Made by a program: the position numbers and the translations under genes
Shown: one piece after another, positions 17,891 to 52,311 of the stretch
Numbering within the stretch: position 1 is the stretch's first letter
Layout: each line of letters opens with the position of its first letter
Source of the DNA: Verrucomicrobiota bacterium
GTDB lineage: Bacteria > Verrucomicrobiota > Kiritimatiellia > SS1-B-03-39 > UBA6053
Assembly: GCA_020831625.1 (NCBI GenBank)
Contig: JAFIGD010000030.1
Location: 1-61,621, forward strand
Reading direction: 5' to 3'
Length of the DNA stretch: 61,621 nt
Notes under the pieces: model-generated
What the model was told of the DNA's origin: nothing
Seen by the model: the letters and a program-made list of their open reading frames with translations, nothing else
The model's database searches: none

Positions 17891-17905
17891 ATTGAAACAT
17901 CAAAT
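17891..17905. promoter_or_regulatory. Half-site resembling the island operator, upstream of the GntR-LacI gene
   Basis: Read on the minus strand, ATTTGATGTTTCAAT matches the first 15 bases of the palindrome at 32535 (ATTTGATGTTTAAAT) at 14 positions. The second arm is not preserved. Located 12-26 bp upstream of the regulator start codon, where it could mediate weak autorepression. Confidence 0.4.
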
Positions 17906-29085: not shown

Positions 29086-32000
29086 TCAGTCATTGGTTCT
29101 GCCCTGGAATTGAATTACCATTAAGGCATGGGGTCCAATCTCAGTGGTTAACACATGATTTGAGATTTCTATCGATCTTTCCGAAACCAAATCCAATCCC
29201 GTGGCTTGGTCAATTCCGTTGACACGGTACCGGACATCCAACCACTCTTTGTTGTCGTTAACTAATGCCACAAAAATATCCCCGTTTTTTTGAAAGATCA
29301 TACTGCGGACCGGCCTGGGCTCCAAAGCCAGCAGCGGTTCCGAATTCAGAAGACCGGCTTCGCTAAGAAGTGCTTTGAAAAAAGAAACATTATTTACCGC
29401 AAACTCTGTTCCCCGCCAGCGGCGCTGCAGGCTCGGATATCCACCCAGAACCATAACACTTCCCTTGCCGAGTTCTCGGCGTGCCACAAGCGTCTCTCCG
29501 AATTTAGAGGTCAAGACCGGGGTCCAGGAGCCGGTATGCCCCAGAACATATCCGTCATTGAATTGTGCGGCATATCCATTCCAGTCCGCCGTTGTGTCAC
29601 GTTTATTTCCTTCGAACCGAAGGCCTTCCAATCCCATGCGCTCTGCAAAATGTGACGGTGTTGCCCGGCCAAGGATATATCGCCCTGATTCGGGAAACAA
29701 CACCAGTTTGCCCCCGTTGGCCACATAGGCACCCAGACGCTCCACATCCCGATCACTGATCAGTTGGGACGCCGCATCAATCACCAGATCATATTTATCC
29801 AGAGCATGGTCGGTGAAATCCGTGAAATATTCCACAGTTGCACCCGTATATTGCAGCCCGAAAATAAAAGACTTATAGAACCTCCAGTCCCAATAAAAAT
29901 TTCCGGTAAAGGATTTGGCGTGATCGATGATGGAGCGATAGGATACATGGATACCAATCCTCGGCACCGGGCGATCGTTGTGTGCATGATCGAGAACATG
30001 AATCATGCTGTCAAAGTGCTGTTTCGTCGGTACCGTCTGAGACAAATTCGGAAAATTCACAATTCCCCCAGCATCATGCAGGATCCTCCCGGCGTGCAGC
30101 TTGCTGAACAGGGCACCCTCCGGACGATTGGGGTCCAGCCCGGCAGGTTCAATGTACATTCGCAGACCACTGCGTCGGTACATATCGTTCACCACATGGA
30201 AGTAGAACGTCTGCGCCGAGCAAATCCCTCCGAATGCATCGTGTTTTTTGAGAAGGTCGAACATGTTCTCCACAGGGCCAAACCCGCCGTAGTTGTAGAG
30301 CGTCAAAAACTTGTCGGTTTGTTCCCGGACGGATGTGAGCAGTGCGTCCGCCACGTAACGCAGGCCATACATTTTAAACTCGTTGAAATCATGCCATTTC
30401 CAGGAGGGATCGGTCTCAAAGAAGCGAGGCAAGGGGAGATCAATGCACTCCCAGGAAGTGTACTTTTCACCATGCCGCTCTGAAAGGGATTCCAATGTAT
30501 GCCCCTGGTCTTCAAGATACCGGCGGAAATGAACCCGTGACGCCTCGGAGTAGTCGAAGCTTTGCTCCCTGAATGCAGCCCCTGCAAACCCCCATTCGAC
30601 CGCCCTCAAGGATAGATGATATCCAATCACATGTGGAAAGGAATCATATCGCCGGACGATTTGCCGCATTAAATCACGGTATCCTTGATTCGTCTTCTCC
30701 GAAAATAGATTCGGGACCATCTTAAACCGAAACCCCTCGCTACGTGAAACCTCCCCGTCCTGGTCGACCATGTACTCTTCAGCCATCAGCCATATTGGAA
30801 TGCGATGCGCCTGGAACAGTGGGAAAAAAGTAACACTCAACCCGTGCTCGGCTGCTTTTTTGACGATCTCGTCAAGCCGCTGGAAATTATACCCCCCTGG
30901 GATCACTTCCAAATCATCCCAGTGCACGATGATCCGAATTCCATCGTACCCCGCCTCCTTGAGTATCGGAAAGTCATGGTCTGGATTACTCGAGACTCCC
31001 ACCTCCGGATGGTTAGCGCCAACATCCATCGGATAATACTGCGTTAGCAGGGGACGATCCGTGGGGAGAGAAACCGGTGTGATCGGAAAGTCCGGTGGAG
31101 TATCGTCATATTGTACCCCGACATAGAGTCGCCTTTCAGCAATTTTCCGGTCGCTGGAGTCATAGAGCGACACATGAAGCCTGTAGACACCCGCCTCGAC
31201 GGAATCCGTACTGAATGAAACCGCGTTCCTGGAGTCGAGGGCCCTGGATTCCTCCCAGACAGGAGAGAGGGTTTCAATCTTCCGGAGAAGCGAGGGAACA
31301 TACCGAGTGATGTACGGGTACAGCTGACAGACAACCCTCATCCCGTCCGCCCGCTCCGGGCTAGGCAACACCTCGAATGCCAATAAGTTGTCAGAAAACA
31401 GTTTATCCGTCCCGTCTATAGACAGAGGGATGATATTCCGATGCTTGTTCATATAGCGAGCCTCGCTGTGAATCGCGGTCTGGATCCGCTCCGAAAAAAA
31501 AGTCAGCGGCTTAGCTATTTCACCCAGTGTGGTTCCGGGCAACTCCCAGTCCTCGGGGACAAGGCTGACCTGCAAGCCTGAACGGACGGCGGAGCCCGAG
31601 GGGGCCAGGCCGGCCGGACTCGATATGTCCATACCGACATGAAGATACTCGACCTCGATCGCCCCCTGTGTCTGCGTGTTGTCGTCATTATGATAGATGC
31701 GGTACAGGAGCAACTGATCTGCTGCATCCTGGTCGCGGATGCCCACGCCCGTGGCCACCGTCGTCCAGGAATCGGTGTCGTGCAGGCGACGGTAGATATC
31801 GACGGTACCGGCCCCGGCCCCGGGCACTTGAGTGACTTCAAACTGCCAGGTATACCAGGTGTTCTCCGCAGTGGCGATCGACGCCGCCTCGTTCCAGGAC
31901 CCCCCGCCATTGACCCACACCCCGTCCGGTTGCAGCGCGATCCAGGTCCGGTCGAACCCACGGATATCCATAACGTTGATTCCCGATGAGCTCTGTGCCA

Positions 32001-32364
32001 CAGTGGGATCAAAGTCGTCGTCCGGAAACTGGGTTACCCTCATGCGGGTCGTCACAACGTAGTTGGTGGCGGCATGAAATGCATATGTGCCGAGCCCAAC
32101 GCTTTTTAATTGCGTCATTCCTCCCGTCGCGCCCTCCATCGTCACCTTCAGCGTACCGTCACTTACGGATGGAGCTTGACCGTTTTCTCCTGTATCGACG
32201 TTGAACCCGACGCGGTTGGTGGATGATCCGTCCAGCCTGGCCATTTCAATGCGCATGTCGACCGCCCAGTCCTGATTCACAAACCGGGCATCGTTGACCA
32301 ATCCTGCATACGCGGCCATGCCGCTAAAAACCACTGTAAGCCCAACCAGTATCCTTTTTTTCAT
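29086..32364 (-). CDS. Secreted GH42-like glycoside hydrolase
   Basis: 1092 residues with signal peptide MKKRILVGLTVVFSGMAAYA. Residues ~22-250 form a concanavalin-like sandwich (DRTWIALQPDGVWVNGGGSW, NTWYTWQFEVTQV). Residues ~430-830 are a TIM barrel of GH42 type (DFPILKEAGYDGIRIIVHWD, GYNFQRLDEIVKKAAEHGL, VIGYHLSLRAVEWGFAG with a candidate acid/base Glu). After that comes a glutamine-amidotransferase-like domain (YDLVIDAASQLISDRDVERL) as in GH42, and a C-terminal beta domain. It would cleave beta-galactoside-like bonds, though the substrate is uncertain. Ribosome site AAAGGAG is present. It heads the unit GH42-symporter-GH38-...-GntR, with the palindromic operator 171 bp upstream of its start. 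GC is lower than most of the island. Confidence 0.75.
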   Translation of the reverse strand: MKKRILVGLTVVFSGMAAYAGLVNDARFVNQDWAVDMRIEMARLDGSSTNRVGFNVDTGENGQAPSVSDGTLKVTMEGATGGMTQLKSVGLGTYAFHAATNYVVTTRMRVTQFPDDDFDPTVAQSSSGINVMDIRGFDRTWIALQPDGVWVNGGGSWNEAASIATAENTWYTWQFEVTQVPGAGAGTVDIYRRLHDTDSWTTVATGVGIRDQDAADQLLLYRIYHNDDNTQTQGAIEVEYLHVGMDISSPAGLAPSGSAVRSGLQVSLVPEDWELPGTTLGEIAKPLTFFSERIQTAIHSEARYMNKHRNIIPLSIDGTDKLFSDNLLAFEVLPSPERADGMRVVCQLYPYITRYVPSLLRKIETLSPVWEESRALDSRNAVSFSTDSVEAGVYRLHVSLYDSSDRKIAERRLYVGVQYDDTPPDFPITPVSLPTDRPLLTQYYPMDVGANHPEVGVSSNPDHDFPILKEAGYDGIRIIVHWDDLEVIPGGYNFQRLDEIVKKAAEHGLSVTFFPLFQAHRIPIWLMAEEYMVDQDGEVSRSEGFRFKMVPNLFSEKTNQGYRDLMRQIVRRYDSFPHVIGYHLSLRAVEWGFAGAAFREQSFDYSEASRVHFRRYLEDQGHTLESLSERHGEKYTSWECIDLPLPRFFETDPSWKWHDFNEFKMYGLRYVADALLTSVREQTDKFLTLYNYGGFGPVENMFDLLKKHDAFGGICSAQTFYFHVVNDMYRRSGLRMYIEPAGLDPNRPEGALFSKLHAGRILHDAGGIVNFPNLSQTVPTKQHFDSMIHVLDHAHNDRPVPRIGIHVSYRSIIDHAKSFTGNFYWDWRFYKSFIFGLQYTGATVEYFTDFTDHALDKYDLVIDAASQLISDRDVERLGAYVANGGKLVLFPESGRYILGRATPSHFAERMGLEGLRFEGNKRDTTADWNGYAAQFNDGYVLGHTGSWTPVLTSKFGETLVARRELGKGSVMVLGGYPSLQRRWRGTEFAVNNVSFFKALLSEAGLLNSEPLLALEPRPVRSMIFQKNGDIFVALVNDNKEWLDVRYRVNGIDQATGLDLVSERSIEISNHVLTTEIGPHALMVIQFQGRTND

Positions 32365-32448
32365 TTCCTTTGTCTCCTTTGTTACCTTGTTGTATTCGGC
32401 CCCTCAGTATAAACATCCAGGTGGCGATTTGTCATGTAAACGCGAATC
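32335..32448. repeat. Duplicated sulfatase-GH42 junction, copy 1
   Basis: Resembles 44291-44395 in the same orientation, with a 9-base length difference in the spacer. Shared blocks include TTCATTTCCTTTGT, GGCCCCTCAGTATAA and TTGTCATGTAAACG. It covers the first ten codons of the GH42-like gene, its leader and the last codons of a vanished sulfatase gene. Confidence 0.8.
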
Positions 32449-32532
32449 GAGCATCAGGCTGAAGTATTCAGATATCTCACTTGATAATCGATCAATTGTT
32501 GATTCATACACAGAAAATCTGGATGAGGCAAG
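32404..32532 (-). pseudogene. 3' remnant of a sulfatase gene
   Basis: On the minus strand a 42-codon open stretch ends in DSRLHDKSPPGCLY and a stop. The intact sulfatase at 44351-45760 ends in DSRLHDKSLLGSLY and a stop, identical at 11 of 14 positions, and the non-coding bases after the stop also match. The upstream part (TIDRLSSEISEYF) is compatible with a sulfatase C-terminus but too diverged to be certain. The rest of that gene is missing. The remnant now forms the leader of the GH42-like gene. Confidence 0.75.
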
Positions 32533-32534
32533 TC

Positions 32535-32557
32535 ATTTGATGTTTAAATGATCAAAT
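32535..32557. promoter_or_regulatory. Palindromic candidate operator upstream of the GH42-like gene
   Basis: Inverted repeat ATTTGAT, nine bases, ATCAAAT. Its reverse complement matches the site at 48179-48201 at 21 of 23 positions and shares 15 consecutive bases with 41810-41824. It lies 171-193 bp upstream of the GH42-like start codon. AraR-type regulators bind ATTTGT-like half-sites, which fits the island's own GntR-LacI protein. Binding is inferred. Confidence 0.6.
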
Positions 32558-32608
32558 AAATAACCAGCCGTTTTCTTTTGGATCTTTAATCATAAGCAGA
32601 GACAAGCG

Positions 32609-34837
32609 TTAGCAGGCCGAATGGAAGCGATGCGCTCCCCTGCCAACGGTTCTCATGATGCCGTCAGGGGTTTGTATGGTTGCGGTGCTTCCCATCGGAA
32701 TCTCAACATCGAGCTGAATCGCATCTTTTGCCTTTTCCCAGCGGACCCGGATTGTTCCATGCGGGGCAGCATGTTCCGCCTCCACCCACTCAAGAGTTGG
32801 AGGAATTTTCGGGGAAATCAGCATATGTCGGAAGCCGGGCTGTTCGGGATCGGGGCGGATCCCGGCAAGAAAATGATACATCCATGCCGAAACATCCCCG
32901 AACATGATATGATTGCGTGAACCGGAGCCATCCCAATTTTCCCAAAGCGATGTCGCACCCCGCTTTAACCAGTGCCCCCAGCCGGGAAAGTCGGTCTGGG
33001 TAAGTAATCGGTACGCCAGATCGATCCGTCCGTATTCCGCCAAAACTCTAGGGACATATTTTGCTCCCAGAACGCCAAAGTCGGCTTTACAATGCGCATT
33101 TTCGACCGAACGGGACAACCTCATCACCACAGACTCTTTTTCAGTTTCTTCAACAAGACCCTGATACAGTGCGCAGGCCAGAGCAGTCTGCTCCCCTTGG
33201 GCATAAAGCCCACTGCCTTTATAAAACGTTTTGTTAAAAGACTCCCGAATGGATACCGCCCAGTCGGCATACTCCTTGCTGTCCCTTGAACGTCCCGTGA
33301 TCAGGGCAAAACGTGAAAGAAGGACCGAAAGCCTGTAAGCATACCCGGTATCCGTTACCGCCCTGTCCACCATGCGTTCGGGATCCGGAGAACACCAATC
33401 CCCCAATCCGAAATCAGCGATTCCGTCTTTCGATCGTCTCAAACAGTAGTTCACATATCGTTTCATGGCCTGATAATGACGATGAATGGGTTCAGGATTT
33501 CCCGTGTATAAGTAGATGTACCAGGGAATCAGCAGAAACGCGCTGTCCCACGCAGGTCCGTTGCCCCAGTTGAAGCCCCACCCCGTTGTAGGAACAATAC
33601 CAGGTAACTGACCGCTAGGCCTTTGACTGTCAGCAATGGAATCAATCCATTGACTGTAGGCTTCCGCTGCGGAAAACTGCATGAGCCCGGTTTCCGCAGC
33701 AAGGTGTGCGTCCCCTGTCCATCCATTTTTCTCCCGATGAGGACAGTCGGTAGGTATCGAGGTGAAATTACTGAGATAGGAGCGAACCGTAATCTTTTGC
33801 AAACGGTTTATTGCTGGGTCCGAAGCTATGAATTTACCTATTTGCGCGAAGGCCGTGTGAACAACCCGTCCTTCGACCCGAAACAGTTCCGCCCGGGTAG
33901 AAATCTGTATATATTGGAATCCATGGTAACTGAAGCGCGGCTCCCATATTTCCCCCCCCCCGCCTTTCAAACGGTACCGGTCGGTTTGAAAGCCGCCATC
34001 CAGAATAAACTTATCAATTTCCCCAGTATCGAGCCTCCCTTCTGAGTCCAGTTGCTCCCCGTAACGAATTACCACCTCCTCTCCGGCTTCACCAGAAACC
34101 ATAATCCGTGCCCATCCGGAAATATTGGCTCCAAGATCATACATAAAGTCCTCCTCTGCGGTCCTCCATGACCGTACAGGTTCAAGTGTCTCCATTACCT
34201 TGCAGGGAGGCATGAGCTGAGGAACGAGCTTCCCGCCGGGAGGTGCCGTTTCCACAGAAGTAACCCAGTCCGAATCATCGTAACCGGGTGCTGACCAGCC
34301 TTCGCATTCCCGGGCGGCGTCATAGTGCTCGCCATTACGGAGACCATCAAAACGTATCGGTCCTGAGGAATATTTCCAGGTAACGTCCGAGGAAACCTGA
34401 ACCGCTTCGTTCACCTCCAAATCCAGTAAAAATTTAGGGTAATCCCGCCAGGAGGCTTTATCAAAATTCCAGGATGCCGGGGTGAAACAATTGTACCATC
34501 CGTTTCCGAGTATAACCCCCACCACGTTTAGGCCCGGCCGCAGAAAGCCACAAACATCGTATTCTACAAACAAAACCCTTCTGTCATATTGCGTGACTCC
34601 GGGATCGAGCACGTGATCCCCGACTTTTTCGCCATTCAGATACAGTTCATAGTATCCCAGGCCACAAATTCGTATGCGGGCACTCCGGGGAGCCCCATCC
34701 ATCGTGAATGATTTTCTAAACAGGGGTGCAGGCAGGACCGGTCGGGTGGAATTAAACAGCACCGCGCCGGGAATACCAATCCACCGGCCTGTAAACTGCA
34801 CAGGAGTGCCACCCTCGGAAAACGTATCACTCTCCAT
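32609..34837 (-). CDS. Alpha-L-rhamnosidase (GH78)
   Basis: 742 residues. The N-terminal accessory domain of GH78 is plain: ARIRICGLGYYELYLNGEKV, DHVLDPGVTQYDRRVLFVEY, VVGVILGNGWYN. The catalytic (alpha/alpha)6 barrel contains IPTDCPHREKNGWTGDAHLA near residue 360, the family motif with the general acid Asp. The beta-sandwich C-terminus (GTIRVRWEKAKDAIQLDVEI) closes the protein. It removes terminal alpha-L-rhamnose from glycans or glycosides. No signal peptide, hence probably cytosolic. The start overlaps the upstream sulfatase stop by 11 bp, so desulfation and derhamnosylation are co-expressed. Confidence 0.92.
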   Translation of the reverse strand: MESDTFSEGGTPVQFTGRWIGIPGAVLFNSTRPVLPAPLFRKSFTMDGAPRSARIRICGLGYYELYLNGEKVGDHVLDPGVTQYDRRVLFVEYDVCGFLRPGLNVVGVILGNGWYNCFTPASWNFDKASWRDYPKFLLDLEVNEAVQVSSDVTWKYSSGPIRFDGLRNGEHYDAARECEGWSAPGYDDSDWVTSVETAPPGGKLVPQLMPPCKVMETLEPVRSWRTAEEDFMYDLGANISGWARIMVSGEAGEEVVIRYGEQLDSEGRLDTGEIDKFILDGGFQTDRYRLKGGGGEIWEPRFSYHGFQYIQISTRAELFRVEGRVVHTAFAQIGKFIASDPAINRLQKITVRSYLSNFTSIPTDCPHREKNGWTGDAHLAAETGLMQFSAAEAYSQWIDSIADSQRPSGQLPGIVPTTGWGFNWGNGPAWDSAFLLIPWYIYLYTGNPEPIHRHYQAMKRYVNYCLRRSKDGIADFGLGDWCSPDPERMVDRAVTDTGYAYRLSVLLSRFALITGRSRDSKEYADWAVSIRESFNKTFYKGSGLYAQGEQTALACALYQGLVEETEKESVVMRLSRSVENAHCKADFGVLGAKYVPRVLAEYGRIDLAYRLLTQTDFPGWGHWLKRGATSLWENWDGSGSRNHIMFGDVSAWMYHFLAGIRPDPEQPGFRHMLISPKIPPTLEWVEAEHAAPHGTIRVRWEKAKDAIQLDVEIPMGSTATIQTPDGIMRTVGRGAHRFHSAC

Positions 34838-36416
34838 GGCTTGTCCCTCGCGGGATCATCAGTTTACGGGCGGGATCCCCCAGAGTTCCAGACTTCAACT
34901 CGACTTTGACTCCGTTAACCTCGGGACAATTTCGGTACTGAGGAATCCGGGCACTCCGCATGTAGGCTCTCGAAAACCTCTCATATAAACTTAGTTTCCG
35001 TTCCCTATACTGCGACTCATAAAATAAATTCACCTGTTCATCCGGATCAGCAGTCAAATCAAACATTTCTCCGAGGCCATCCGTATGGTAGATTGTAAAC
35101 CGCCACCCATCCGAGGTGATTATGCTGCGAACGCTATCCTCCTCATTGGCACAGTACTCAACCGTTACTTCATGCCAAGCTTCTGATGAGGTCTGGCCTC
35201 GCAAAGCCGGTGTAAACGAGCGGCCTTCAAGTGGCGGTAGTGACCGGGTGCATTCCGCCAGTTCACAAACCGACGGGAAAAAATCAAGCGTGCAAACCAA
35301 TTGAGAAAGGACGCAGTCCTTGCCAATTCCCGGTCCGGAAACAATCAGTGGACAGTGGATAGCTTTATCATAGTGCTTCTGACCTTTTCCCGGAAGGCCA
35401 TGGTCTCCGATTAAATCTCCGTGGTCGGACGTGAACACAATGATCGTATTTTCTTTAAGTCCTTTTTGTTCCAGGTATTCAAGAATCCTGTTTATTTGAT
35501 CATCCACAAACCTTACCGAGCCCGCATACAATGCACGGGCCTGCTTGATCGCACGCACGTCCCCTTCCACCTTCCTGAAATTCAGATAATCTTTTGAGCG
35601 CTCCAGAACCGGATTCCCTTTTTGCTGCCAGGTGCCCGGAAGCGGATCAGGCATCTCCTCGGGCGAAAACATTGTGTTGTATGGAACCGGAGGATCATAA
35701 GGATCATGAGGATCCACATAAGACACAAATGCGCAAAAAGGAGATTCAGGCTCCGAATCAAGATGCCGGGCGATAAAATCCAGCGACTGATCCGTAATCC
35801 AGGTGGTCTGATGCAACTCCTTCCGCAAAGGGGAAGAATAGGCTGACGGCCAATCCGACGCAGCACGAATCGGTTGTAGAATGTTTCGGCGAGCTGTCTG
35901 AATCCGGCTGAAGAGATCCTCATTTGTGACTCCATACTGCCGGCTGTAATCAATCGGCCAGGTGATTGAAAGAGCATGTTCCGCATCTTCGGGATACTCA
36001 CGGCGAACCCAGTCAATCCATGGACCCAGTTTAGGGTCCTCGGTGGCGGCGGTTTCATTGAACCCCAGAGAGGAGAAGTCCGGCGGTAGCGGGGCACCCA
36101 TGCTGGTCAGATGGAATTTTCCGAAGCCGCCTGTTTTGTACCCATCGGCCTGCAGCACTTGGAACAACGTCGGGATGTCGCTTTTCAACTCGTAATTATT
36201 ATCTGTCACACCGTGAACAACCGGACTTCGCCCGGTAAAAAGTGTGGCCCGGCTGGGACCGCAAACAGGAATCGAGACATAACAGCGCTCAAAACGGGTT
36301 CCCTCCCGGGCCAGCCGGTCCAGGGTCGGCGAAACGGAAAGTCCGCTCCCGTAACAGCCCAAAATAGAGGCCGGAAGCTGGTCCATCATAACGAAAAGGA
36401 TGTTGGGTCGTTCCAT
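34827..36416 (-). CDS. Sulfatase (type I)
   Basis: 529 residues. The start MERPNILFVMMDQLPASILG carries the metal Asp, and the signature CGPSRATLFTGRSPVVHG has Cys52 for formylglycine. IIVFTSDHGDLIGDHGLPGKG gives the second metal cluster and GKGQKHYDKAIHCPLIVSGPG the conserved Lys-His region. It cleaves sulfate esters on a carbohydrate, probably the rhamnose-containing glycan handled by GH78 downstream, with which it overlaps by 11 bp. No signal peptide. GC is lower than in the flanks, like the GH78 and GH42-like genes. Confidence 0.92.
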   Translation of the reverse strand: MERPNILFVMMDQLPASILGCYGSGLSVSPTLDRLAREGTRFERCYVSIPVCGPSRATLFTGRSPVVHGVTDNNYELKSDIPTLFQVLQADGYKTGGFGKFHLTSMGAPLPPDFSSLGFNETAATEDPKLGPWIDWVRREYPEDAEHALSITWPIDYSRQYGVTNEDLFSRIQTARRNILQPIRAASDWPSAYSSPLRKELHQTTWITDQSLDFIARHLDSEPESPFCAFVSYVDPHDPYDPPVPYNTMFSPEEMPDPLPGTWQQKGNPVLERSKDYLNFRKVEGDVRAIKQARALYAGSVRFVDDQINRILEYLEQKGLKENTIIVFTSDHGDLIGDHGLPGKGQKHYDKAIHCPLIVSGPGIGKDCVLSQLVCTLDFFPSVCELAECTRSLPPLEGRSFTPALRGQTSSEAWHEVTVEYCANEEDSVRSIITSDGWRFTIYHTDGLGEMFDLTADPDEQVNLFYESQYRERKLSLYERFSRAYMRSARIPQYRNCPEVNGVKVELKSGTLGDPARKLMIPRGTSHGE

Positions 36417-36458
36417 TTGTCTTTCTCTTTCAGGACACAGTGTAACGTGAACCTTCCC

Positions 36459-39400
36459 TCATTGCGCGTCACTAATGCGGCGGATTTTAATTGCGTTGCA
36501 GAGACGGGTGCTGCTTCGATGGCCTTCCGGAACCGATAGATCCAGCCTCAGGACCCCGTCGGTGACATCCACCGGCCCGAAGGTTCGGACAAGCGATCCC
36601 TCAAACACCCCGCCCTGCTCAAGAAATAAATCCATGCGGTCCGCCACCCGCGTTCTCTGCAGATCAATATTCAGCAGAAACCAGCCCGGTCTGGCGTTCC
36701 GCTCGAAACCGGTGCGCATATAAAGGGTCACCTCATAGATTCCATTGGGCACGGTAAACCGGTAGCCTTCAAAATCGTAAGACTCCGTGGAGAATAATTC
36801 CGGGTCCTCCGCACCGGACCCCTGCAGCCGGGCCACCGTTCGCACCACACTTTTGCGGTCAGGCCCCACATAGCCAAACGAGCCTTCCTCATACGCCCGG
36901 TCCGGCTGAAAAAGCGTCCCGTCCGATGAGAGGAAATAATCGCGGGCCCCGCAGTTCACGGCAATCACCCCCTCCTTTTCCATTGCCGCAAGTTTTTGAT
37001 AATACCCCCGGGACGCGGCACGGGTCCGCAGCTCAAGCCGGGAAAGCTCCGTGCTGGTCAGGGTGTAGAGCGCGGCCTCCATCCGTTCAGAAGCCAGCAG
37101 GTTCCGGGCTGAATTCAGCAGCTCACGCTCACGGGCGGTATCGACATGCTGCGCGGACAGCGCATCCACCTGTTGGGTCAGCCGCTCCAGCTGCCGCCGC
37201 AAATAGACAAACGCCTCGGAGGAAACTTCGGCAGTGACGTTCGTGACTTCAGCATGTTCTCCGTGGACAAAAAACGACCGCAGTTGATACGGCTTCAGGG
37301 AAACCTCCAGATCCGGACCTTGCTCACCCGGCAAATCCCCCGACAGGTCACGCACAGCCACCGGATTGGCAAACGTCAGCCTGGCCTCAATTTCCGCAAA
37401 CGAGGTGTTCACCAGATAAAGATACATTCCGGTTTCGGTTCGGTAATACCGCACCGTAAGATCCTCCCGTGGGTGCGCATACTCCTGAAAAGGCGTTGCG
37501 GGCAAGGCACGGAATGCGCGGGCGAACTCCCGGGTTTCCCTCTCCCGCCCCAGCGTGCCCACCGGTTGACCGCCCAGCAGCAGCCAGTCGCTGTCAAACT
37601 GTGCAACATTAAAGGCCCATTCCTTTAAAAAATACCGTCCCGATGGTTTCACATCCGCATTTTGAAAGTAGGAGGGAAATCTCTCCGGATCCAGGGAGTT
37701 GTTAAACGATTCGAAGTAAGGGGCGAAACTCCATACGGGAACCGGGCCGGTGCCCTGCTGGTAAACGTTCCAGTTTCGCCCTGTGTACAGCATTTGATTG
37801 TGTGTGGAGATTCTCCCGTCCCAGGCCTGCTGCCAGCGGTGCATTCCATGACGCATCGGCGCCACCCGCACATTGGGCAGCCTGCGGATTTCAGGAAGAT
37901 CCAGAGCCCGGTGCTCAAAAAAATACGCTCCGGCATCCGCCAGATTCCCGGGAAAACCTTCCTGCGGAAGGCTGGTGTTAAGGACCAGGACACGGTCCGG
38001 ATTTATCTCGCTCATCCTCCGGCGGATCTCGCGGATCCATTCCGTGTTTTGCCGTGCCCGCCAGCGAATCCAAATCTCCCGGTTTTCCTCTGTCAAAAAC
38101 TTCCACCGCGCTTCAAACCGGTCCGGTCCCTCCACCCCGGGAACCGCAAGGCCCGTGTCCTCCTCAAAACGCTGCACAGTGAAGTCGTCATAGCCGAACT
38201 CCAGCCCGCCCGGGAACAGCGGAGAGGGATTTCCCCACAAACCGGAGGTCCACAAATCAATTCCTAGAAAAGCGGGATGATCCCCGAAACGGTCCATGAC
38301 CTCCATAATATGGGCCGTCACCGCGTCCCGCACTTCCGGGTGATAGATGTTGAGAACAAAACTGTTTCGGACCCCGGCAATTTTAATTTCAGAGGGACGT
38401 CCGTTTCGGTCCAGCGCAAAATAATTCCTGCGGGTATGCTCCTCAACCCGGTCGGGTCTTCGGCTCAGCTCCGGAACACTCCGCAAATTCACCGCCGCCA
38501 AAACCTGAATGCCGGCCGCGCCAAACACATCCAGCAGGGCGTGCAAATGCCCCGGAGCGTGCAGCCCCTCAAGCGTATGTCCCGGCTGAGCATACCCGGG
38601 TGTATCGTACCGCAGGAACGGATACGAAAAAAGATTCTGACCGGTATACGCAAAATACTCCGCCATCCGCTGAAACAGAATCACCGGGTAAAACGGGTCT
38701 GACCGTTCGTGGATATCATCATAGTTAAAATGAATTTGAAAGGTCTGGTCCTCATCGAAAAATCCCAGACGCCGCGCCGGATACCCTTCGGGCGTTTCAA
38801 GCGCCAGTGCCGGCAGCACCTCCTCCAGCGGACGCACCCGGATTTTGGAAACCGCCGCGGGCATCCCCTCCACCATGGTTCTCGCCTCAAACAAATAGCT
38901 CTGAACTCCCGGATAAAACAAATGGCGGGTCATAATTTCCTCACCTGTGACAGGAAATTCGTTTCCGCTTTGAATGCCCGCACCCAGACGGTCGCGGTGC
39001 TGCGGATTGCGCGCCTCAGGATACAGATACCAGCCCATTGAGCGCGGACGGTCATCCGGCCACAGAAATTCCAGCATCACCGGCCGCCCGGTGCCCACGT
39101 GTTCTTCCGGAAAACGAATCTCAAAACTGAACCGGTCGAATTTGTTTCCGCCCGCCTCCAGATAGTCTGATCCGTCCGCCGTCACCCCACGCCGCGTGGG
39201 CGCATTCGAAATCACCTGATCCATTAGATCCGTCGGGCGGATCACCCGCACCGGCTCACCCAGGGCGACCTCTTCCGCGCGGGGCACCCTGGGATTCGCC
39301 GGAGTGTACGCCCTCAGCAAGGTGGTCCGCTGAACCGCGCCATGGGCACTGCGGATGTCCAGCCGGAGACGGTGAAGCCCCTCCTCCAACGGAGGCAGTG

Positions 39401-40769
39401 AGGCCGTCACGGTCACACGCTCCCTGACCGCCCCCTGAAAAAGCTCCGCGCTCCGCACGATCCGCCCCGCGTCATCCTCCAGATGCATGGACACCGTCAC
39501 TTCCCCGGTATCCCGCCCGCCCGCCTCCGGACCGGGAAGGAGCAGAACCGGAAGCTCCAAAGCCTGGCCCGCCGGCACAAATCGTCGCTCCAACACAGGC
39601 TCCACCGGCATGAGTGCCCCATAAGCCTCCTGGACTTCCCCGTCGTTCAACGGGCGGTTATACAGGTGAACCTCCGAAAACATCCCATCCGCACGCCCGC
39701 CGATGACCATCTGGCCGAGCTGCGTGAACGGCATGGGTGCCAGCTGAATACTTCCCGGCGTGTACAGGACATGTTCATAGGGAATTCCGTTGACATATAG
39801 CCGGTTCCAGCCCTGGTCATTCCACACCACCGCAACGTGTATTCCGTCTCCGCGATGCATCAGATCCCGCGCCCCCCGCTTCACCAGATGCCGCTCCCCG
39901 AACTCCGGATGCATCAGCCTCACCCGCAGACGCTGAGCCATCACCATATCCATAAGCAGTCCGCCGTTTTCATCAGACAAGGTCAACAGAGTGCGGGCGG
40001 GCTGTCCGGAGCCCCGGCTGTCCCACTCCGGCCGGTACCAGAACATCACCGTCCCTGAACCGGCGGCGAACAGATCACGGTCCTCCACAGTGTGCCGCAC
40101 CTCCTCCAGGGGCACACCGTCCAGTCCCGCAGTGAAGACGGGGCCCTCCTGAACCGCCGCCGGTGCGGCAGCCAGATCCAGTGCTCCGGCCTCCAGGATC
40201 TCCACGGCAATATTGACCCGGTGCGCATACAGGGAGGTGCTCCGCACCACGCCGATATCCGGAAACGCGCCCTGCCCCCACTGCACCGGATTTCCGTTGA
40301 TCACCAGTTGCAGGCTCTGCCGGTACCACACAAACCGAACTTCATTCCATTCGCTGTCTTCGGATTCCGGCCAGACTTCAGGAAAACGGGAGCGCTGGCT
40401 GGACACACTTTGATTGTCTACCGACACCCGGGCCACCACCCGGTTTGGCCAGAAATGCACCGCCAAATCCCCTTTCTCCCCGTGGAAAATCAGGCCGCCA
40501 TGCCGTCCGCCCTCTTCTCCTTCGGTAAACCGAATCCGAAGCATTCCTCTGAATTCCACCAGATCCGGCCCGGCAAAAGTCAGCCGCTTGGATCCGGAGC
40601 CCTCTGAACGCAGAACGGACTCCCCGGCAGTCCAAAGGCCGTTTCGCCCGGTGATTGTGGCCGGGGTTCCGGTTTCATGCCAGCGAATACCCGTCCATTC
40701 GCTTTGGACCGCCCGCCCGGCATGAGCGCATGAACACAGCAGCAAAAAGCAACCCAGAAAATATCGCAA
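36459..40769 (-). CDS. Secreted 1436-residue multidomain protein (LamG, TIM-barrel, malectin-like)
   Basis: It starts at a TTG at 40769, since no ATG lies in frame after the upstream stop. The N-terminus MRYFLGCFLLLCSCAHA is a signal peptide, possibly a lipobox. Residues ~25-200 are a sandwich domain. Residues ~205-385 are LamG-like (VMFWYRPEWDSRGSGQ, IHVAVVWNDQGWNRLYVNGI, MFSEVHLYNRPLNDGE). Residues ~680-1130 form a TIM-barrel hydrolase-like region (TRRNYFALDRNGRPSEI, FLGIDLWTSGLWGNPSPLFP). A coiled helical segment lies near 1180-1265, and the last ~168 residues are malectin-like (VIAVNCGARDYFLSSDG, YRFTVPNGIYEVTLYMRTGF). I assign no glycoside hydrolase family. It probably degrades or binds the glycan outside the cell. 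Confidence 0.7.
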   Translation of the reverse strand: MRYFLGCFLLLCSCAHAGRAVQSEWTGIRWHETGTPATITGRNGLWTAGESVLRSEGSGSKRLTFAGPDLVEFRGMLRIRFTEGEEGGRHGGLIFHGEKGDLAVHFWPNRVVARVSVDNQSVSSQRSRFPEVWPESEDSEWNEVRFVWYRQSLQLVINGNPVQWGQGAFPDIGVVRSTSLYAHRVNIAVEILEAGALDLAAAPAAVQEGPVFTAGLDGVPLEEVRHTVEDRDLFAAGSGTVMFWYRPEWDSRGSGQPARTLLTLSDENGGLLMDMVMAQRLRVRLMHPEFGERHLVKRGARDLMHRGDGIHVAVVWNDQGWNRLYVNGIPYEHVLYTPGSIQLAPMPFTQLGQMVIGGRADGMFSEVHLYNRPLNDGEVQEAYGALMPVEPVLERRFVPAGQALELPVLLLPGPEAGGRDTGEVTVSMHLEDDAGRIVRSAELFQGAVRERVTVTASLPPLEEGLHRLRLDIRSAHGAVQRTTLLRAYTPANPRVPRAEEVALGEPVRVIRPTDLMDQVISNAPTRRGVTADGSDYLEAGGNKFDRFSFEIRFPEEHVGTGRPVMLEFLWPDDRPRSMGWYLYPEARNPQHRDRLGAGIQSGNEFPVTGEEIMTRHLFYPGVQSYLFEARTMVEGMPAAVSKIRVRPLEEVLPALALETPEGYPARRLGFFDEDQTFQIHFNYDDIHERSDPFYPVILFQRMAEYFAYTGQNLFSYPFLRYDTPGYAQPGHTLEGLHAPGHLHALLDVFGAAGIQVLAAVNLRSVPELSRRPDRVEEHTRRNYFALDRNGRPSEIKIAGVRNSFVLNIYHPEVRDAVTAHIMEVMDRFGDHPAFLGIDLWTSGLWGNPSPLFPGGLEFGYDDFTVQRFEEDTGLAVPGVEGPDRFEARWKFLTEENREIWIRWRARQNTEWIREIRRRMSEINPDRVLVLNTSLPQEGFPGNLADAGAYFFEHRALDLPEIRRLPNVRVAPMRHGMHRWQQAWDGRISTHNQMLYTGRNWNVYQQGTGPVPVWSFAPYFESFNNSLDPERFPSYFQNADVKPSGRYFLKEWAFNVAQFDSDWLLLGGQPVGTLGRERETREFARAFRALPATPFQEYAHPREDLTVRYYRTETGMYLYLVNTSFAEIEARLTFANPVAVRDLSGDLPGEQGPDLEVSLKPYQLRSFFVHGEHAEVTNVTAEVSSEAFVYLRRQLERLTQQVDALSAQHVDTARERELLNSARNLLASERMEAALYTLTSTELSRLELRTRAASRGYYQKLAAMEKEGVIAVNCGARDYFLSSDGTLFQPDRAYEEGSFGYVGPDRKSVVRTVARLQGSGAEDPELFSTESYDFEGYRFTVPNGIYEVTLYMRTGFERNARPGWFLLNIDLQRTRVADRMDLFLEQGGVFEGSLVRTFGPVDVTDGVLRLDLSVPEGHRSSTRLCNAIKIRRISDAQ

Positions 40770-40821
40770 CGGGATCCAGTCGTTAAATTGAAGATTTGTG
40801 ATCTGAATAAACGGCGGACGC

Positions 40822-41772
40822 TTATTTCCGGCGGCGGAAGCGCGTCAAATAGGTGACCAGACCCGCGATGGCCACCAGGCCCAGCGTGCCCGGTTCCGGA
40901 ATCACGGTTAACACCAAATCCTGATTGTTGTTGTCCAGACTAAGCGTCCAGTCAAAACTCCCGCCGTTCAGCACCTCAAAGTTACTGTTGGCAAACGAAC
41001 CGGTGCCCGAGAACGCGCCGCTTTCAGTGTCCAGCCAGGTACGCAGAGAGCCTCCAATGGTGACGCCGGCATTGGGATTTGTAATCAGAGAATAGGTTTG
41101 CATCACCTCCAGATTCGCCAGATCCACCTGCAGGAGACCATCGAGAACGTTTTGGCCTTCGGATGCCCTGGTTGTCTGAAGAGTGGTCACCGAATCGGTT
41201 CCGAACTGGAACGTAATGACCCCACCCAACCTCAGGTCAATTCTCGGTGCCTGCAGGGTTGCTCCGGACTCCACCGTTAAAAAACTCCTGTTGGCAGGTG
41301 TATTCGAAGCACTGGTACTATGGCCAATTTGCAGAAATCCTGGGTCCAGACCGCCCGTTCCGTCATTGGTGATTGCACCTCCGGACCGCAAGGTCAGTGA
41401 TCCCTGATATGCGGCTCTCCCTCCTTGACCCACAATGACGTTTCTTGTTCTCAAGGTCCCCCCATCCGCTATCTCAACGTAGACCCGGCCAGAAGGATCG
41501 TTAGCAGCTTCAAAAGATTCAATACGCACCACGCCCATGGTCACGTTAAAACCCGAGTCCACAATGGCCGGATTGGCCGCGGTGGCATTGTCCAGGGTGA
41601 ACGAAGACAATTCATTACCAGCGACTGGAAACGTAGTCCAGTTCCCGGTTGTGGACCAGAGATTGTCGGCTCCTTCTCCTGTGAATATCACATTGTCGGC
41701 ATGCAGCGGCTGATACGCGGCAAGCAGAAGACCGCCTGCAAACAAAAGAATTCTGGAGGAATGGATGTTCAT
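40822..41772 (-). CDS. PEP-CTERM sorted surface protein
   Basis: 316 residues with signal peptide ending QPLHA. The body is beta-helix-like, rich in G, T and N, starting DNVIFTGEGADNLWSTTGNW, with VVRIESFEA, VIVGQGGRAAYQGSLTLRSG and FEVLNGGSFDWTLSLDNNNQ. The C-terminus VIPEPGTLGLVAIAGLVTYL plus RFRRRK is a complete PEP-CTERM signal for exosortase processing. It is probably an extracellular or exopolysaccharide-associated protein. It is a tandem paralogue of the gene at 41890-42747. A candidate operator (41810-41832) lies 38 bp upstream of its start. Confidence 0.88.
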   Translation of the reverse strand: MNIHSSRILLFAGGLLLAAYQPLHADNVIFTGEGADNLWSTTGNWTTFPVAGNELSSFTLDNATAANPAIVDSGFNVTMGVVRIESFEAANDPSGRVYVEIADGGTLRTRNVIVGQGGRAAYQGSLTLRSGGAITNDGTGGLDPGFLQIGHSTSASNTPANRSFLTVESGATLQAPRIDLRLGGVITFQFGTDSVTTLQTTRASEGQNVLDGLLQVDLANLEVMQTYSLITNPNAGVTIGGSLRTWLDTESGAFSGTGSFANSNFEVLNGGSFDWTLSLDNNNQDLVLTVIPEPGTLGLVAIAGLVTYLTRFRRRK

Positions 41773-41809
41773 AGCTTCACCTTGGGTTGGGGGTTGTCAT
41801 CATTTGTTG

Positions 41810-41832
41810 ATTTGATCATTTAAATGTAGTCC
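41810..41832. promoter_or_regulatory. Partial copy of the island palindrome upstream of the PEP-CTERM gene
   Basis: ATTTGATCATTTAAA is identical over 15 bases to the reverse complement of the 32535 site, but the second arm has diverged. Located 38-60 bp upstream of the start at 41772, a position suited to promoter control. Confidence 0.5.
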
Positions 41833-41889
41833 CTGCTGACAGTCAAGGGTTATTTTGGAAAATTTTTATCTCGCGTTTCCCAGCAGACC

Positions 41890-42747
41890 TCAGGGATGAA
41901 TCACCAAAACCAGATCCCGCCGGTTCCGCTCCAACCGGAGCGTCCACCGGTGCTCGCCTCCGTTGAGCACTTCGAAATGCTCATGAGTGAAGGATCCCCG
42001 TCCCGAAACCGCGCCGTTGTTTGCCTGAAGCCATTCCGACAGATATCCGCCAATCGGAAGATGATTCACCTCGCTGCGGATGAGGGGATATGTTTTCGGG
42101 GTGTTAAGTTTGGCGAGATCCACCTGCACGCGTCCGCTTAAACGGTTTTCATACCCGCGGTCTCTGCGGGTGGTGTGGATGGGGGTCACACGGTCGGCTC
42201 CAAACTCAAAACGCAGCATCCCTCCGGCCCGCAGCTCAATCAAGGGCGCCTGAACCAGCCGTGCCCCGTCCGACAGAATTAAAAAACTCGGGTGCTGCGG
42301 GTCCCCGCCGCCGACTTGCAGCATCCCGATCCCCTGAAAGCGGTGTTCGATGGCACCTCCGCGCAGCACCCGCAGCGAACCCTGATACGCCGGACGTCCG
42401 CCCTGCCCGACAAAAACACTGTGGGCCCGCAGGGTCGCCCCCTCTGAAATGTCCACGTGCACCCGTCCGGGAACAGGTGCCGAACCCATAAAGGACTCAA
42501 TCCGCACCACCCCCAGTTCGAGATCAAAATCCGGATCGAGAATTGCGGGATTTCCCTCAGGGGTTTTGTCCGCGCGGAAGCCCTCAATCTCCGCCATTGC
42601 ACCGGGGAAAGGATCCCAATTCGCGGGATTCGACCAGAGGTTGTCCGCCCCCGCTCCGTTAAACATCACCTCCTCGGACACCGTCAGGGCGGGAACGGTC
42701 AGGATGCCGAGAGCAAAAAGAAATTTTATAAGACGGGATGTGTTCAT
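41890..42747 (-). CDS. Paralogue of the PEP-CTERM protein without its sorting signal
   Basis: 285 residues. Signal peptide MNTSRLIKFLFALGILTVPALT, then a body clearly homologous to the next gene (ADNLWSNPANWDPFPG, GVVRIESFMGSAPVPGRVHV, VFVGQGGRPAYQGSLRVL, FEVLNGGEHRWTLRLERNRR). The protein stops at LVLVIHP, just where the paralogue reads LVLTVIPEPG. One base out of frame the DNA still encodes IPE before diverging, so a frameshift probably removed the PEP-CTERM tail. It may now be released rather than anchored. The start overlaps the upstream sulfatase stop by 4 bp. Confidence 0.8.
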   Translation of the reverse strand: MNTSRLIKFLFALGILTVPALTVSEEVMFNGAGADNLWSNPANWDPFPGAMAEIEGFRADKTPEGNPAILDPDFDLELGVVRIESFMGSAPVPGRVHVDISEGATLRAHSVFVGQGGRPAYQGSLRVLRGGAIEHRFQGIGMLQVGGGDPQHPSFLILSDGARLVQAPLIELRAGGMLRFEFGADRVTPIHTTRRDRGYENRLSGRVQVDLAKLNTPKTYPLIRSEVNHLPIGGYLSEWLQANNGAVSGRGSFTHEHFEVLNGGEHRWTLRLERNRRDLVLVIHP

Positions 42748-44225
42748 GGCGTATGCTCCTTGGCGGAAGGTTCGGGTGTCATGCGTTCTCGAAAATAAGC
42801 CTTCACTTTTTCAGGGGAAATATCCGGCTGTTTGATTTGCGGGGCGGTTTCATCCACGAGGGTTTCATACCCCCCGGAGTGCTCCCTGTCGAACTGTTCC
42901 GCCTTTTCCCGCAGTTCCTCAATCACCGGCTGACAGGCCGGATCGTGCAGACGGTTTTTCTGTTCCAGGGGATCCGCAGTCAGGTCGAAAAACAAGTCCT
43001 CACACATTCCCCCGTTCAAGAGCAATTTATGATTCCGGGTCCGGATCATGCTGCGCCGCCCGCTGCCGGCCTCGCAAATCACCTGCGGCCTTCCCCGGGG
43101 GGTTCCCCGGATCGGAATACCCTCCATCGAATCCGGAACCTCAACCCCGGCGGATGTCAGAATCTCGGTGGTCACATCCACACTGCTGAACAGACTGGAA
43201 CGGACTCCGCCCGCCTGATCGCCGCCGGGATATTTAATGAACAGCGGCACCCGGGCCAGCGGGTCATACAAATGATTGCTTTTCAGCAGAAGGTGATGGA
43301 AACCCATATACTCGCCGTGATCGCTGTTCACAATGATCATCGTGTCTTCATAAAGGCCCTGATCTTTTAGAGAGCGGATCAATTCCCCAATTACCTGATC
43401 AATATGACTGATCGACGCATAGTAGGCGGCCATCACGTGCCGGAGGGTGTCCTCCGTCAAATCCCGGTTCGGGAAAAAGCCTTCATTCAGGCACGCATCC
43501 ACATCCGCCAGCGTGTCGGTCCATCCCGGGAGCAGGGTCAAGGCACCGGGATCATATCGGTCCAGAAAGGATCGGGGGGGATCAAAAGGGTGGTGAGGCT
43601 TGATAAAGCTGACCATCAGCAGATTGGACTCCCGCTCATTCCAGTTTGAGAGGGCTTCCATGGCTTTGCGGCCGATCCAGGCAGTAGAGTGAAAACGGTC
43701 GGGCAGATTGGAGGCTTTGGCTCCGCAGGAGGCGTGGTAGTCGGCATTCGCCCCGGCACGGAACTCCTCCACCTGGTCGATCAAATCGTTTTCATCCACC
43801 AGGCCCTCCCGCATCAGCTCCGTATGGTAATCGTCCTCCCAGCGCCCGGGTCCATTCTGTTCGGCCAGACACATGCGTTGAAACCCCACGTCCAGATAGG
43901 TGGGCGTGAAATGCATTTTTCCCACCGCCGCCGTTTTCCATCCCGCCCGGGCAAGCGTTTTGGGAAAGGTGGGAATCTCCGAACGGAGGGTGCAGTGGTT
44001 GGACCATCCGCCGTGGCGGGAAACATACTGACCGGACAAGAAGGAATACCGGGAGGGTGTGCAGACCGGATGCGTGCAAAAGCAGTTGGTATAGCGCACG
44101 CCGTCCGCAGCCAGTGCGTCCATCACCGGTGTGTGCACATCCTGATTGCCATAGGCGCCCATACAGTCCCATCGATGCTGGTCTGTCTGCAGAATTAAAA
44201 TGTTTTTGGCTTTTTTTTCAGTCAT
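42744..44225 (-). CDS. Sulfatase (type I)
   Basis: 493 residues. N-terminus KNILILQTDQHRWDCMGAYG, signature CTPSRYSFLSGQYVSRHG with Cys55, metal segment MIIVNSDHGEYMGFHHLLLK and SNHLYDPLARVPLFIKYPGG with the conserved basic residues. It removes sulfate from a carbohydrate. No signal peptide. It overlaps the 41890-42747 gene by 4 bp downstream and the relic GH42 start upstream. Composition is more GC-rich than the sulfatase at 44351. Confidence 0.92.
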   Translation of the reverse strand: MTEKKAKNILILQTDQHRWDCMGAYGNQDVHTPVMDALAADGVRYTNCFCTHPVCTPSRYSFLSGQYVSRHGGWSNHCTLRSEIPTFPKTLARAGWKTAAVGKMHFTPTYLDVGFQRMCLAEQNGPGRWEDDYHTELMREGLVDENDLIDQVEEFRAGANADYHASCGAKASNLPDRFHSTAWIGRKAMEALSNWNERESNLLMVSFIKPHHPFDPPRSFLDRYDPGALTLLPGWTDTLADVDACLNEGFFPNRDLTEDTLRHVMAAYYASISHIDQVIGELIRSLKDQGLYEDTMIIVNSDHGEYMGFHHLLLKSNHLYDPLARVPLFIKYPGGDQAGGVRSSLFSSVDVTTEILTSAGVEVPDSMEGIPIRGTPRGRPQVICEAGSGRRSMIRTRNHKLLLNGGMCEDLFFDLTADPLEQKNRLHDPACQPVIEELREKAEQFDREHSGGYETLVDETAPQIKQPDISPEKVKAYFRERMTPEPSAKEHTP

Positions 44226-44320
44226 TGCCTTTTCTGTACGTTGTCTGGTCTGATAGTTAAACCTTCATTATATTTATGAACCGTCTCAAGCGTGAGTTCA
44301 AACAATATCCCTTTCTTCAT
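44222..44320 (-). pseudogene. 5' remnant of a GH42-like gene
   Basis: Directly behind the sulfatase at 44351, with the ribosome site AACAAAGGAA, an ATG opens 32 codons starting MKKGILFELT. The intact GH42-like gene starts MKKRILVGLT, and the first 30 bases agree at 22 positions, as does the leader. After codon ten similarity is lost and the frame ends at a TGA overlapping the next sulfatase start. It is a relic of a second GH42 copy, the mirror image of the sulfatase relic at 32404-32532. Confidence 0.7.
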
Positions 44321-44395
44321 TTCCTTTGTTTCCTTGTGGTATTTGGCCCCTCAGTATAAGCTGCCGAGTAGCGACTTGTCATGTAAACGTGAATC
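44291..44395. repeat. Duplicated sulfatase-GH42 junction, copy 2
   Basis: Direct repeat partner of 32335-32448. Here the sulfatase side is intact and the GH42 side is broken, the reverse of copy 1. Confidence 0.8.
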
Positions 44396-45760
44396 CAACG
44401 GATGCTCTTGAAGCCATCTATTTAACCTGGAAAGCAGGTCCTCCACAATGTGTTGCATCCGCTCCTCCTTGAACAGGTTCGTTTTTTCTTCAGGATCACT
44501 CCCAAGATCATACAGCCCCCCATCCAGTAAGTCTTTATCGGACATGTTTAGCGAAAACGGCAACGTTACATCCATGCGATACGACGCGTGACGAACTGCA
44601 GCGCGGAAATGGGGCTCTGTCTCATCTGCGTATGCCCATTCCGGACGAATCGCACCAAAAGCAACCCCTCCTTCCCCCTCCGTGAATAAATCCCTCCCTA
44701 CCCATAGATCGGGAACAGAATTCTGTAAACCAAGGCATCCAAAAAGCGTCCGGGCAAGATCCACTTGTTCACAGATTCCATTACGTCGCTCTCCCTGGGG
44801 AACAAGACCCGGTCGCCAACAGATAAAAGGCACCCGCCATACACAATCGTCGAAGGTATCCTTTTCTCCAACACCCCATTCCCCCAACGATTTGCCATGA
44901 TCGGTTGAATAAACAATTAATGTGTCATCCAGAACATCTAAATTCTTCAGTCCGGCAAGCAGCCGCCCAACTTCATGGTCGACATACGAACACAAGCCCA
45001 TGTAATCGCGCCACATCTGGACTACCTGAGATTCCGACAGTTTGTCCATTCGGTCCTGCAACGCTTTTTTCCGATCATATTCCGGCCGCCCCTCACGCTG
45101 TGCTTTGTCAAACCGTCGAATAGGCAGTTCCTGCGCCTGGTAGGTATCCCCCCAAGGATCAGGGGGCAATACCGGCGTATGGGGAAAAAGATGATTCACT
45201 CGAATAAAAAACGGATGTGACCGGTCCATTGACCGAATAAACTCAAGTGCACGATCGGTGACATGAGTTGCCGGATTGTCCTTTACATCAGGATACCTGC
45301 CAGCAAGGATAATAGGTGCTCCGCCGGGGCGTTTAATGACGCGATGTTCTGCTTCATCAAATCCCTCCGGCAGCCCGTAGAATCCGATGTGCTTTTCTTC
45401 GATGACAAACACGTCATCGTGCTGCCACACCTCATGGCCCATGATATGCCGCTTTCCGAAGCTGGCTGTACAATAACCGCTATCTTTCAGTGCCTCCGGC
45501 AGTGATTTGTGTCCGTCCGGAGGAGAAAACGATAAGGCCCGGTTATGAAGACATCCGATTGCCTGGGGATAATCCACCCAGACTTGCGAAGAACGGCTTG
45601 GCACACATACAGGTGCCTGGCAATATGCGTTTTCAAAAACGGTGCCCTCTTTGGCCAAGCGATCAATGTTCGGTGTCTTCGCCCATTTCGACCCGTAACA
45701 ACCCAGAGAATCCACCCTCTGCTCATCAGTCTGTATCCATATTACATTCATCTTTCTCAT
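44351..45760 (-). CDS. Sulfatase (type I) with atypical signature tail
   Basis: 469 residues from ATG 45760 (or 45751). MNVIWIQTDEQRVDSLGCYG and CVPSR (Cys52) are intact. The usual xxxLTG part after the CxPSR core is replaced by SSQVWVDYPQAIG, so the second half of the standard signature is missing. Since the CxPxR core is what the formylglycine-generating enzyme recognises, activation should still be possible. LIVYSTDHGKSLGEWGVGEKDTF provides the second metal cluster, also slightly atypical. Low GC, like the GH42-like gene with which it was once adjacent. No signal peptide. Confidence 0.87.
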   Translation of the reverse strand: MRKMNVIWIQTDEQRVDSLGCYGSKWAKTPNIDRLAKEGTVFENAYCQAPVCVPSRSSQVWVDYPQAIGCLHNRALSFSPPDGHKSLPEALKDSGYCTASFGKRHIMGHEVWQHDDVFVIEEKHIGFYGLPEGFDEAEHRVIKRPGGAPIILAGRYPDVKDNPATHVTDRALEFIRSMDRSHPFFIRVNHLFPHTPVLPPDPWGDTYQAQELPIRRFDKAQREGRPEYDRKKALQDRMDKLSESQVVQMWRDYMGLCSYVDHEVGRLLAGLKNLDVLDDTLIVYSTDHGKSLGEWGVGEKDTFDDCVWRVPFICWRPGLVPQGERRNGICEQVDLARTLFGCLGLQNSVPDLWVGRDLFTEGEGGVAFGAIRPEWAYADETEPHFRAAVRHASYRMDVTLPFSLNMSDKDLLDGGLYDLGSDPEEKTNLFKEERMQHIVEDLLSRLNRWLQEHPLDSRLHDKSLLGSLY

Positions 45761-48160: not shown

Positions 48161-48182
48161 AAATAATGTGTCAACATTATTT
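48161..48182. promoter_or_regulatory. Perfect inverted repeat upstream of the pseudopilin gene
   Basis: Arms AAATAATGT and ACATTATTT around GTCA, overlapping by four bases the palindrome at 48179-48201. It could be a second operator or part of the promoter region of the pseudopilin gene, 59 bp upstream of its start. Confidence 0.4.
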
Positions 48183-48201
48183 GATTATTTAATCATCAAA
48201 T
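48179..48201. promoter_or_regulatory. Palindromic candidate operator at the head of the island
   Basis: ATTTGAT, nine bases, ATCAAAT; the best-formed copy of the island palindrome. It differs from the reverse complement of 32535-32557 at two of 23 positions. Lies 77-99 bp upstream of the pseudopilin start and would control the first transcription unit of the array. Confidence 0.6.
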
Positions 48202-52127: not shown

Positions 52128-52306
52128 GGAATTCCTGCCGTGCCCGCGACAAGGGTCATTCTTTGGCCTTTCTATTAAAACGGGAGCTGATAAACGGTGA
52201 TGACGAGCATGCCCCTCTACGGGGACGTTCCGAGTCATCACTCATAGTTCCCACTTTGAACTCCGGTTCAAAGATTGTCCCTGAACGACACGGTGGTGTT
52301 CCTTTT
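52128..52306 (+). ncRNA. ssrS: Probable 6S RNA
   Basis: A ~180-nt non-coding stretch folds by eye like 6S RNA. The closing stem GGAAU...GCCGUG pairs with CACGGU...GUUCC. A large central bubble has on its 3' strand a small hairpin CUUUGAA-CUCCGG-UUCAAAG, as E. coli 6S RNA has around its UUGAACC stem. The long apical arm is made of GGGAGCU/AGUUCCC, GUGAUGAC/GUCAUCAC and CCCC/GGGG with loop UCUAC, and contains GAGCAUGC as in E. coli. It is followed by six U. 6S RNA mimics an open promoter and sequesters sigma70 RNA polymerase in stationary phase. The identification rests on manual folding and remembered E. coli features; a covariance-model search (Rfam RF00013) was not possible. Confidence 0.7.
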
Positions 52307-52311
52307 TTATT

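Follow-up and report, generated by a model that had tools for sequence, protein, structure and literature searches.

The carbohydrate-gene island within our window (the whole stretch of DNA that was analysed, 61,621 nt of contig JAFIGD010000030.1 from a 4.9 Mb Verrucomicrobiota genome) raises the question as to how one short segment, which joins the end of a sulfatase gene to the beginning of a GH42-like gene, came to stand at both ends of a 12-kb block of other genes. We consider it somewhat better than an even bet that a segment carrying the GH42 promoter, leader and gene start was copied in front of an operon headed by a second sulfatase gene (promoter capture), truncating the sulfatase gene upstream. 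The repeat looks like a modest, known kind of genome rearrangement and not like an inserted gene block. The island genes, on the minus strand, encode four sulfatases, an alpha-L-rhamnosidase, a LamG-malectin protein, two paralogues (one with a PEP-CTERM end) and GH42, and further an SSF transporter, a GH38, an ADP-ribosylglycohydrolase, a sugar isomerase, a DUF3604 protein, a HAD protein and a GntR/LacI-type regulator. One of the two paralogues (41890–42747) is a tandem relative, at ~50%, of the PEP-CTERM protein at 40822–41772; its TGA stands just before the sorting signal, and it may have lost its anchor. The features on which the argument turns are the following:

32335 to 32448, minus strand: left copy of the repeat, with a promoter-like site, leader, Shine-Dalgarno sequence and the first ten GH42-like codons

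44291 to 44395, minus strand: right copy of the repeat, in which the end of sulfatase A (14 codons and stop) is followed by a leader and ten GH42-like codons

32449 to 44290, minus strand: 12-kb block between the copies, with sulfatase 2, two paralogous export-type proteins, the LamG-malectin protein, a sulfatase and the rhamnosidase

29086 to 32364, minus strand: GH42-like gene, 1092 aa, with an N-terminal domain also found in a genome of another family (G125); proposed donor

44351 to 45760, minus strand: sulfatase A, 469 aa, its last 15 codons atypical and proposed to be supplied by the copied segment

42744 to 44225, minus strand: sulfatase 2, at the head of the unit that is proposed to have acquired a promoter

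Over the 114 columns of a global alignment, the 32.3-kb and 44.3-kb regions differ by 19 substitutions and one 9-nt indel; the two copies are 82% identical, in direct orientation and ~11.95 kb apart. At this identity, a misjoin of the copies in the assembly is improbable. Whole-genome BLAST with the left region returns the left and right copies only (weaker E = 3.6e-18), and a 44-nt pattern with up to three mismatches matches these two places only, with 0 matches for its reversed control; neither search reveals a third copy in the 4.9 Mb genome. The likeness of the two copies is far beyond chance. Both hold 14 codons and a stop (DSRLHDKS..G.LY*), followed by ten GH42 codons (MKKRILVGLT and MKKGILFELT). 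The original prediction of a segment duplicated at both sites, in direct orientation and ~12 kb apart, is thus borne out by alignment, BLAST and pattern search. It was equally right that the GH42 and sulfatase A genes are both intact, each an open frame with the stated domain, and that the right copy contains the GH42 gene beginning, which puts a gene-boundary segment at both ends of the 12-kb block. Both genes are also low in GC as claimed, but this does not set them apart, the rhamnosidase (0.525) and inner sulfatase (0.518) of the block being equally low, and we rejected low GC as a link between GH42 and sulfatase A. Within 0.8 Mb sampled from the same genome, short direct repeats (50–400 nt) are common, mostly as intergenic families or within-gene repeats, and few join gene edges as the GH42/sulfatase A pair does. 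Another gene-edge patch lies on contig C94 (L167), where 70 nt from the 3' part of a gene recur, at 98.6% identity, in an intergenic position (12949–13018 and 18454–18523).

Judged by its protein sequence, the GH42 half of the repeat is native to the GH42 gene, since the gene starts with MKKRILVGLTVVFSGMAAYA, a signal peptide by inspection, and alignment to the G125 relatives of its N-terminal domain begins at residue 1. Those codons lead, in the right copy, into MKKGILFELTLETVHKYNEG, a sequence without the look of a signal peptide. A segment from upstream of GH42 recurs upstream of a different gene, as a promoter duplication would have it, and we infer that copying went from GH42 to the end of sulfatase A. 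The copied GH42 ATG also opens a short frame:

44222 to 44320, minus strand: 32-codon frame (MKKGILFELTLETVHKYNEGLTIRPDNVQKRQ*), which may be fortuitous

Its stop overlaps the sulfatase 2 start (44225) as ATGA.

What had been taken for a relic of a sulfatase tail in front of the GH42 gene fares less well. Of 355 gene ends in the 0.8 Mb sampled, the last 15 codons of sulfatase A score lowest in codon usage and, scored by the gene's own usage, fall below all 440 windows of sulfatase A; the SGSH_C domain match stops at residue 448, ahead of the repeat. Moreover, this half of the repeat carries a promoter-like site:

32406 to 32435, minus strand: sigma-70-like site ATGACA-18-TATACT of the left copy (10/12), by consensus match only

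44353 to 44382, minus strand: sigma-70-like site ATGACA-18-TATACT of the right copy, its -10 entering the sulfatase A stop codon, by consensus match only

A scan finds one such site in each region, at the same repeat position in both copies; the hexamers contain none of the 19 substitutions and the 18-nt spacer contains 7. Random placement equals this pattern with P = 0.003, in a test devised after the pattern had been seen, and for the absence of hexamer substitutions alone P = 0.08; it counts against promoter capture that shuffled regions carry 0.5–0.9 sigma-70-like sites on average. Because the codon usage is atypical and the promoter-like site is conserved as a promoter would be, the shared 15 codons look more like pasted regulatory DNA than like native sulfatase DNA. 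The predicted site is presumed to act as a promoter, with transcripts expected to start at ~32399 and ~44346 and to have leaders of ~35 nt (GH42) and ~120 nt (sulfatase 2), and the right copy probably gives the sulfatase-2 operon its own predicted promoter.

The contrary evidence comes from the sulfatase family. Each of the 20 sulfatase relatives examined continues beyond the position equivalent to residue 455, and therefore a native tail is expected at the end of sulfatase A. It also counts against capture that the end of sulfatase A at residue 469 is normal for the family (462–577 equivalents), and that a promoter overlapping a native sulfatase end would distort codon usage equally. The longer native tails of relatives are consistent with a truncated sulfatase A, and we read the gene as having once had a tail that was lost to the pasted segment, though the present tail could also be native. 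The codon positions of the substitutions (5 of 8 in the tail are third positions) were set aside: every model has the right copy coding, and they therefore do not reveal the direction of copying.

A native tail would suit the main rival explanation, a true junction relic, which we hold to be unlikely. In this scenario the lineage once had the order block, sulfatase operon, GH42, and a tandem duplication followed by reciprocal losses produced the order sulfatase operon, block, GH42, with a GH42 head left behind the sulfatase and a sulfatase tail left before GH42. It predicts reciprocal relics in direct orientation, as found, and the duplication-random-loss model behind it is well described for mitochondria (PMC5745709). 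Our locus agrees with that model's prediction of reciprocal relics at new boundaries and departs from it in its sulfatase half, which by codon usage does not have the look of a decayed sulfatase; the non-native usage of the tail thus speaks against the relic.

Under promoter capture, ~105–114 nt of the GH42 5' end, comprising the sigma-70-like promoter, the ~35-nt leader, the Shine-Dalgarno sequence, the ATG and ten codons, would have been duplicated in direct orientation, the new copy coming to lie immediately before the sulfatase-2 operon and taking the place of the last codons and stop at the 3' end of sulfatase A. By the most economical route, which we infer, a tandem duplication that began upstream of sulfatase 2 and ended at GH42 codon 10 would have fused the GH42 promoter and start to sulfatase 2, and a deletion ending inside the promoter segment would then have removed the first unit save its last ~105 nt, together with the sulfatase A tail; a direct ectopic copy of ~110 nt would also be possible. 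No intermediate genome for the capture route is known, which counts against it. Bacteria are known to capture promoters through tandem duplication or deletion (PMC11111574, citing the E. coli citrate transporter case). As in that work, a rearrangement would have set a promoter before other genes, with a new junction of gene start and captured genes in direct orientation; unlike it, our case consists of a footprint only, which is old (82% identity) and has lost most of the duplicated unit, and the promoter is predicted. Promoter propagation in prokaryotes (Matus-Garcia et al. 2012), to go by its citations in PMC5906472 and PMC11111574, is similar in that a promoter region, here a predicted one, is found twice in one genome before unrelated genes, and dissimilar in that here there are two copies only, which include ten donor codons. 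If the capture reading is true, the locus holds a promoter-capture footprint inside a natural sulfated-glycan degradation cluster in which donor, recipient and truncated neighbour can all still be read.

Could the two copies instead be maintained as a common regulatory element? The island has operator-like sites and a regulator of its own:

32536 to 32556, minus strand: palindromic operator-like site TTTGATNATTTAANCATCAAA upstream of GH42, outside the repeat

48180 to 48200, no strand assigned: palindromic operator-like site TTTGATNATTTAANCATCAAA upstream of the first island gene

17884 to 17904, plus strand: weaker operator-like site TTTGATNATTTAANCATCAAA directly upstream of the regulator gene

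16767 to 17879, minus strand: GntR/LacI-type regulator, whose sole strong relative, among 346 genomes, lies in the orthologous cluster of G125

A partial copy of the palindrome lies at 41804–41824, and beyond the island sites the 4.9 Mb genome has one other match to TTTGATNATTTAANCATCAAA, a weak one. With such palindromes at both, the block and its flanks share what looks like one regulon, and the island-specific sites, including the one directly before the regulator gene, make a self-contained regulon likely. The operator was rejected as a part of the repeat, the palindrome lying outside the copies. A shared regulatory leader under selection, in which co-regulated units carry the same promoter and leader and the likeness of the gene edges is incidental, would agree with the conservation pattern of the promoter and with the fact that both copies precede a multi-gene unit of the apparent single regulon. 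We regard it as rather improbable: the likeness extends ten codons into GH42, the genome holds only these two copies, with none at the remaining promoters that have an operator, and the repeat has no match to an Rfam family and no conserved RNA fold with compensatory change (shared structure was rejected for want of a compensatory pair, with covariation drawn from two sequences only). The likeness of the two operator-bearing upstream regions was rejected as proof of one duplicated unit, since it ends with operator and promoter. Past these elements, what precedes GH42 bears no likeness to what precedes the first sulfatase operon, which also tells against the junction relic.

The regulator provides a way to find related clusters. 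Compared with 346 genomes of the class, it has a frameshift-split relative of 55–65% identity on contig C161 of G125, and the next best match has 32%. The G125 contig, from a different family, carries SSF fragments, an MFS transporter, an esterase, a gene with two GH42 N-domains, a lamG gene and a rhamnosidase. Its GH42 N-domains are 42–47% identical to ours, in a gene without the GH42 catalytic domain, and its lamG protein is 33–35% identical over ~1200 residues; the rhamnosidase is assigned by Pfam family. This cluster (L084) looks to be decaying, with its regulator frameshifted and its transporter left as fragments. Leader homology in G125 is not significant, and further upstream only a 27-nt operator/-35 stretch resembles ours, with a score reached by 3 of 4000 random windows; we place no weight on it. 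In this one cluster of G125, two gene types of the block, rhamnosidase and lamG, stand beside a GH42 N-domain gene and the same regulator, and they probably already did so when the two clusters parted at 42–47% protein identity. The repeat copies, largely non-coding and 82% identical, would be younger than that split unless gene conversion kept them alike. Since block gene types were probably already beside the GH42 N-domain gene and the copies would be younger than the split, it is unlikely that the block came in late between sulfatase A and GH42.

This bears directly on the original prediction, in which the 12-kb block entered at a junction between sulfatase and GH42 genes and duplicated ~110 nt of its target, as one of several nested events of the same kind. 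Direct repeats do flank the block, and at the outer edges of the island, too, a gene start is directly repeated. Against this stand the G125 cluster, where two gene types of the block lie beside the GH42 N-domain gene instead of being absent or separate, operator sites of the same apparent regulon inside and outside the block, and the lack of an integrase, transposase or recombinase among the island proteins scanned with Pfam; together with an outer edge that is one-sided (see below), we consider block insertion very unlikely. Short shared gene edges are not proof of block insertion, and the orthologous cluster in another family argues against an insertion history. The G125 cluster is also at odds with the junction relic, having no sulfatase between lamG and the GH42 N-domain gene. 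None of the relatives searched has the sulfatase and GH42 side by side, as both models of a former junction would have it, an outcome that the original prediction had itself named as refuting; this is weak evidence, as close relatives of both genes are missing altogether. Two scans of genome contigs gave no relatives of GH42 and sulfatase A, and class-wide searches gave no full-length GH42 relative and sulfatase homologues of ~34% identity at best.

The outer edges of the island, where two SNF2 genes (SNF2a and SNF2b) adjoin it, had been thought to show the same pattern:

16647 to 16730, plus strand: 84-nt copy of the SNF2b head, now supplying the stop of SNF2a; outer comparison

The copy, at the left edge next to SNF2a (13795–16653), is 97.6% identical to the SNF2b head. 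A GC-rich patch (16731–16775) separates it from the 3' end of the regulator gene. The three same-genus genomes all have SNF2a and SNF2b on separate contigs; in one of these, G002, they are 86% (SNF2a) and 89% (SNF2b) identical to ours, and another sulfatase follows SNF2a. What lies upstream of SNF2b in G002 matches the island's right edge (score 54, versus 41 or less in shuffles). The intact SNF2b has no SNF2a sequence before it, only the SNF2b head being duplicated at the outer edges. Because the two genes are on separate contigs in relatives and the native upstream sequence of SNF2b is kept at the right edge, the outer edge is, by this comparison, not a duplicated SNF2a-SNF2b junction, and it is one-sided. 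SNF2a has lost its native end (APLDLDA*, versus APLHVDRSEA* in G002) and now ends at a stop codon provided by the pasted SNF2b start, much as the GH42 segment seems to provide that of sulfatase A. What stands of the supposed common pattern is therefore that a copied gene start supplies the stop of a truncated upstream gene; nested insertions at duplicated junctions do not. A broader idea, decidedly doubtful in our view, is that carbohydrate-gene islands of this lineage grow or reshuffle by recurrent pasting of a gene start (80–115 nt) from the far side of a block to its near side, where the upstream gene is cut short and given a stop codon, as might be visible here on two nested scales (84 nt at the edge, ~110 nt inside).

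Elsewhere in the window, a 119-nt direct repeat (56679–56797 and 61504–61621) is 95% identical between its copies, the second of which ends at the contig end, and a 6S RNA adjoining a tRNA gene and an Acido-Lenti-1 RNA are found at 52129–52384 and 56549–56594.
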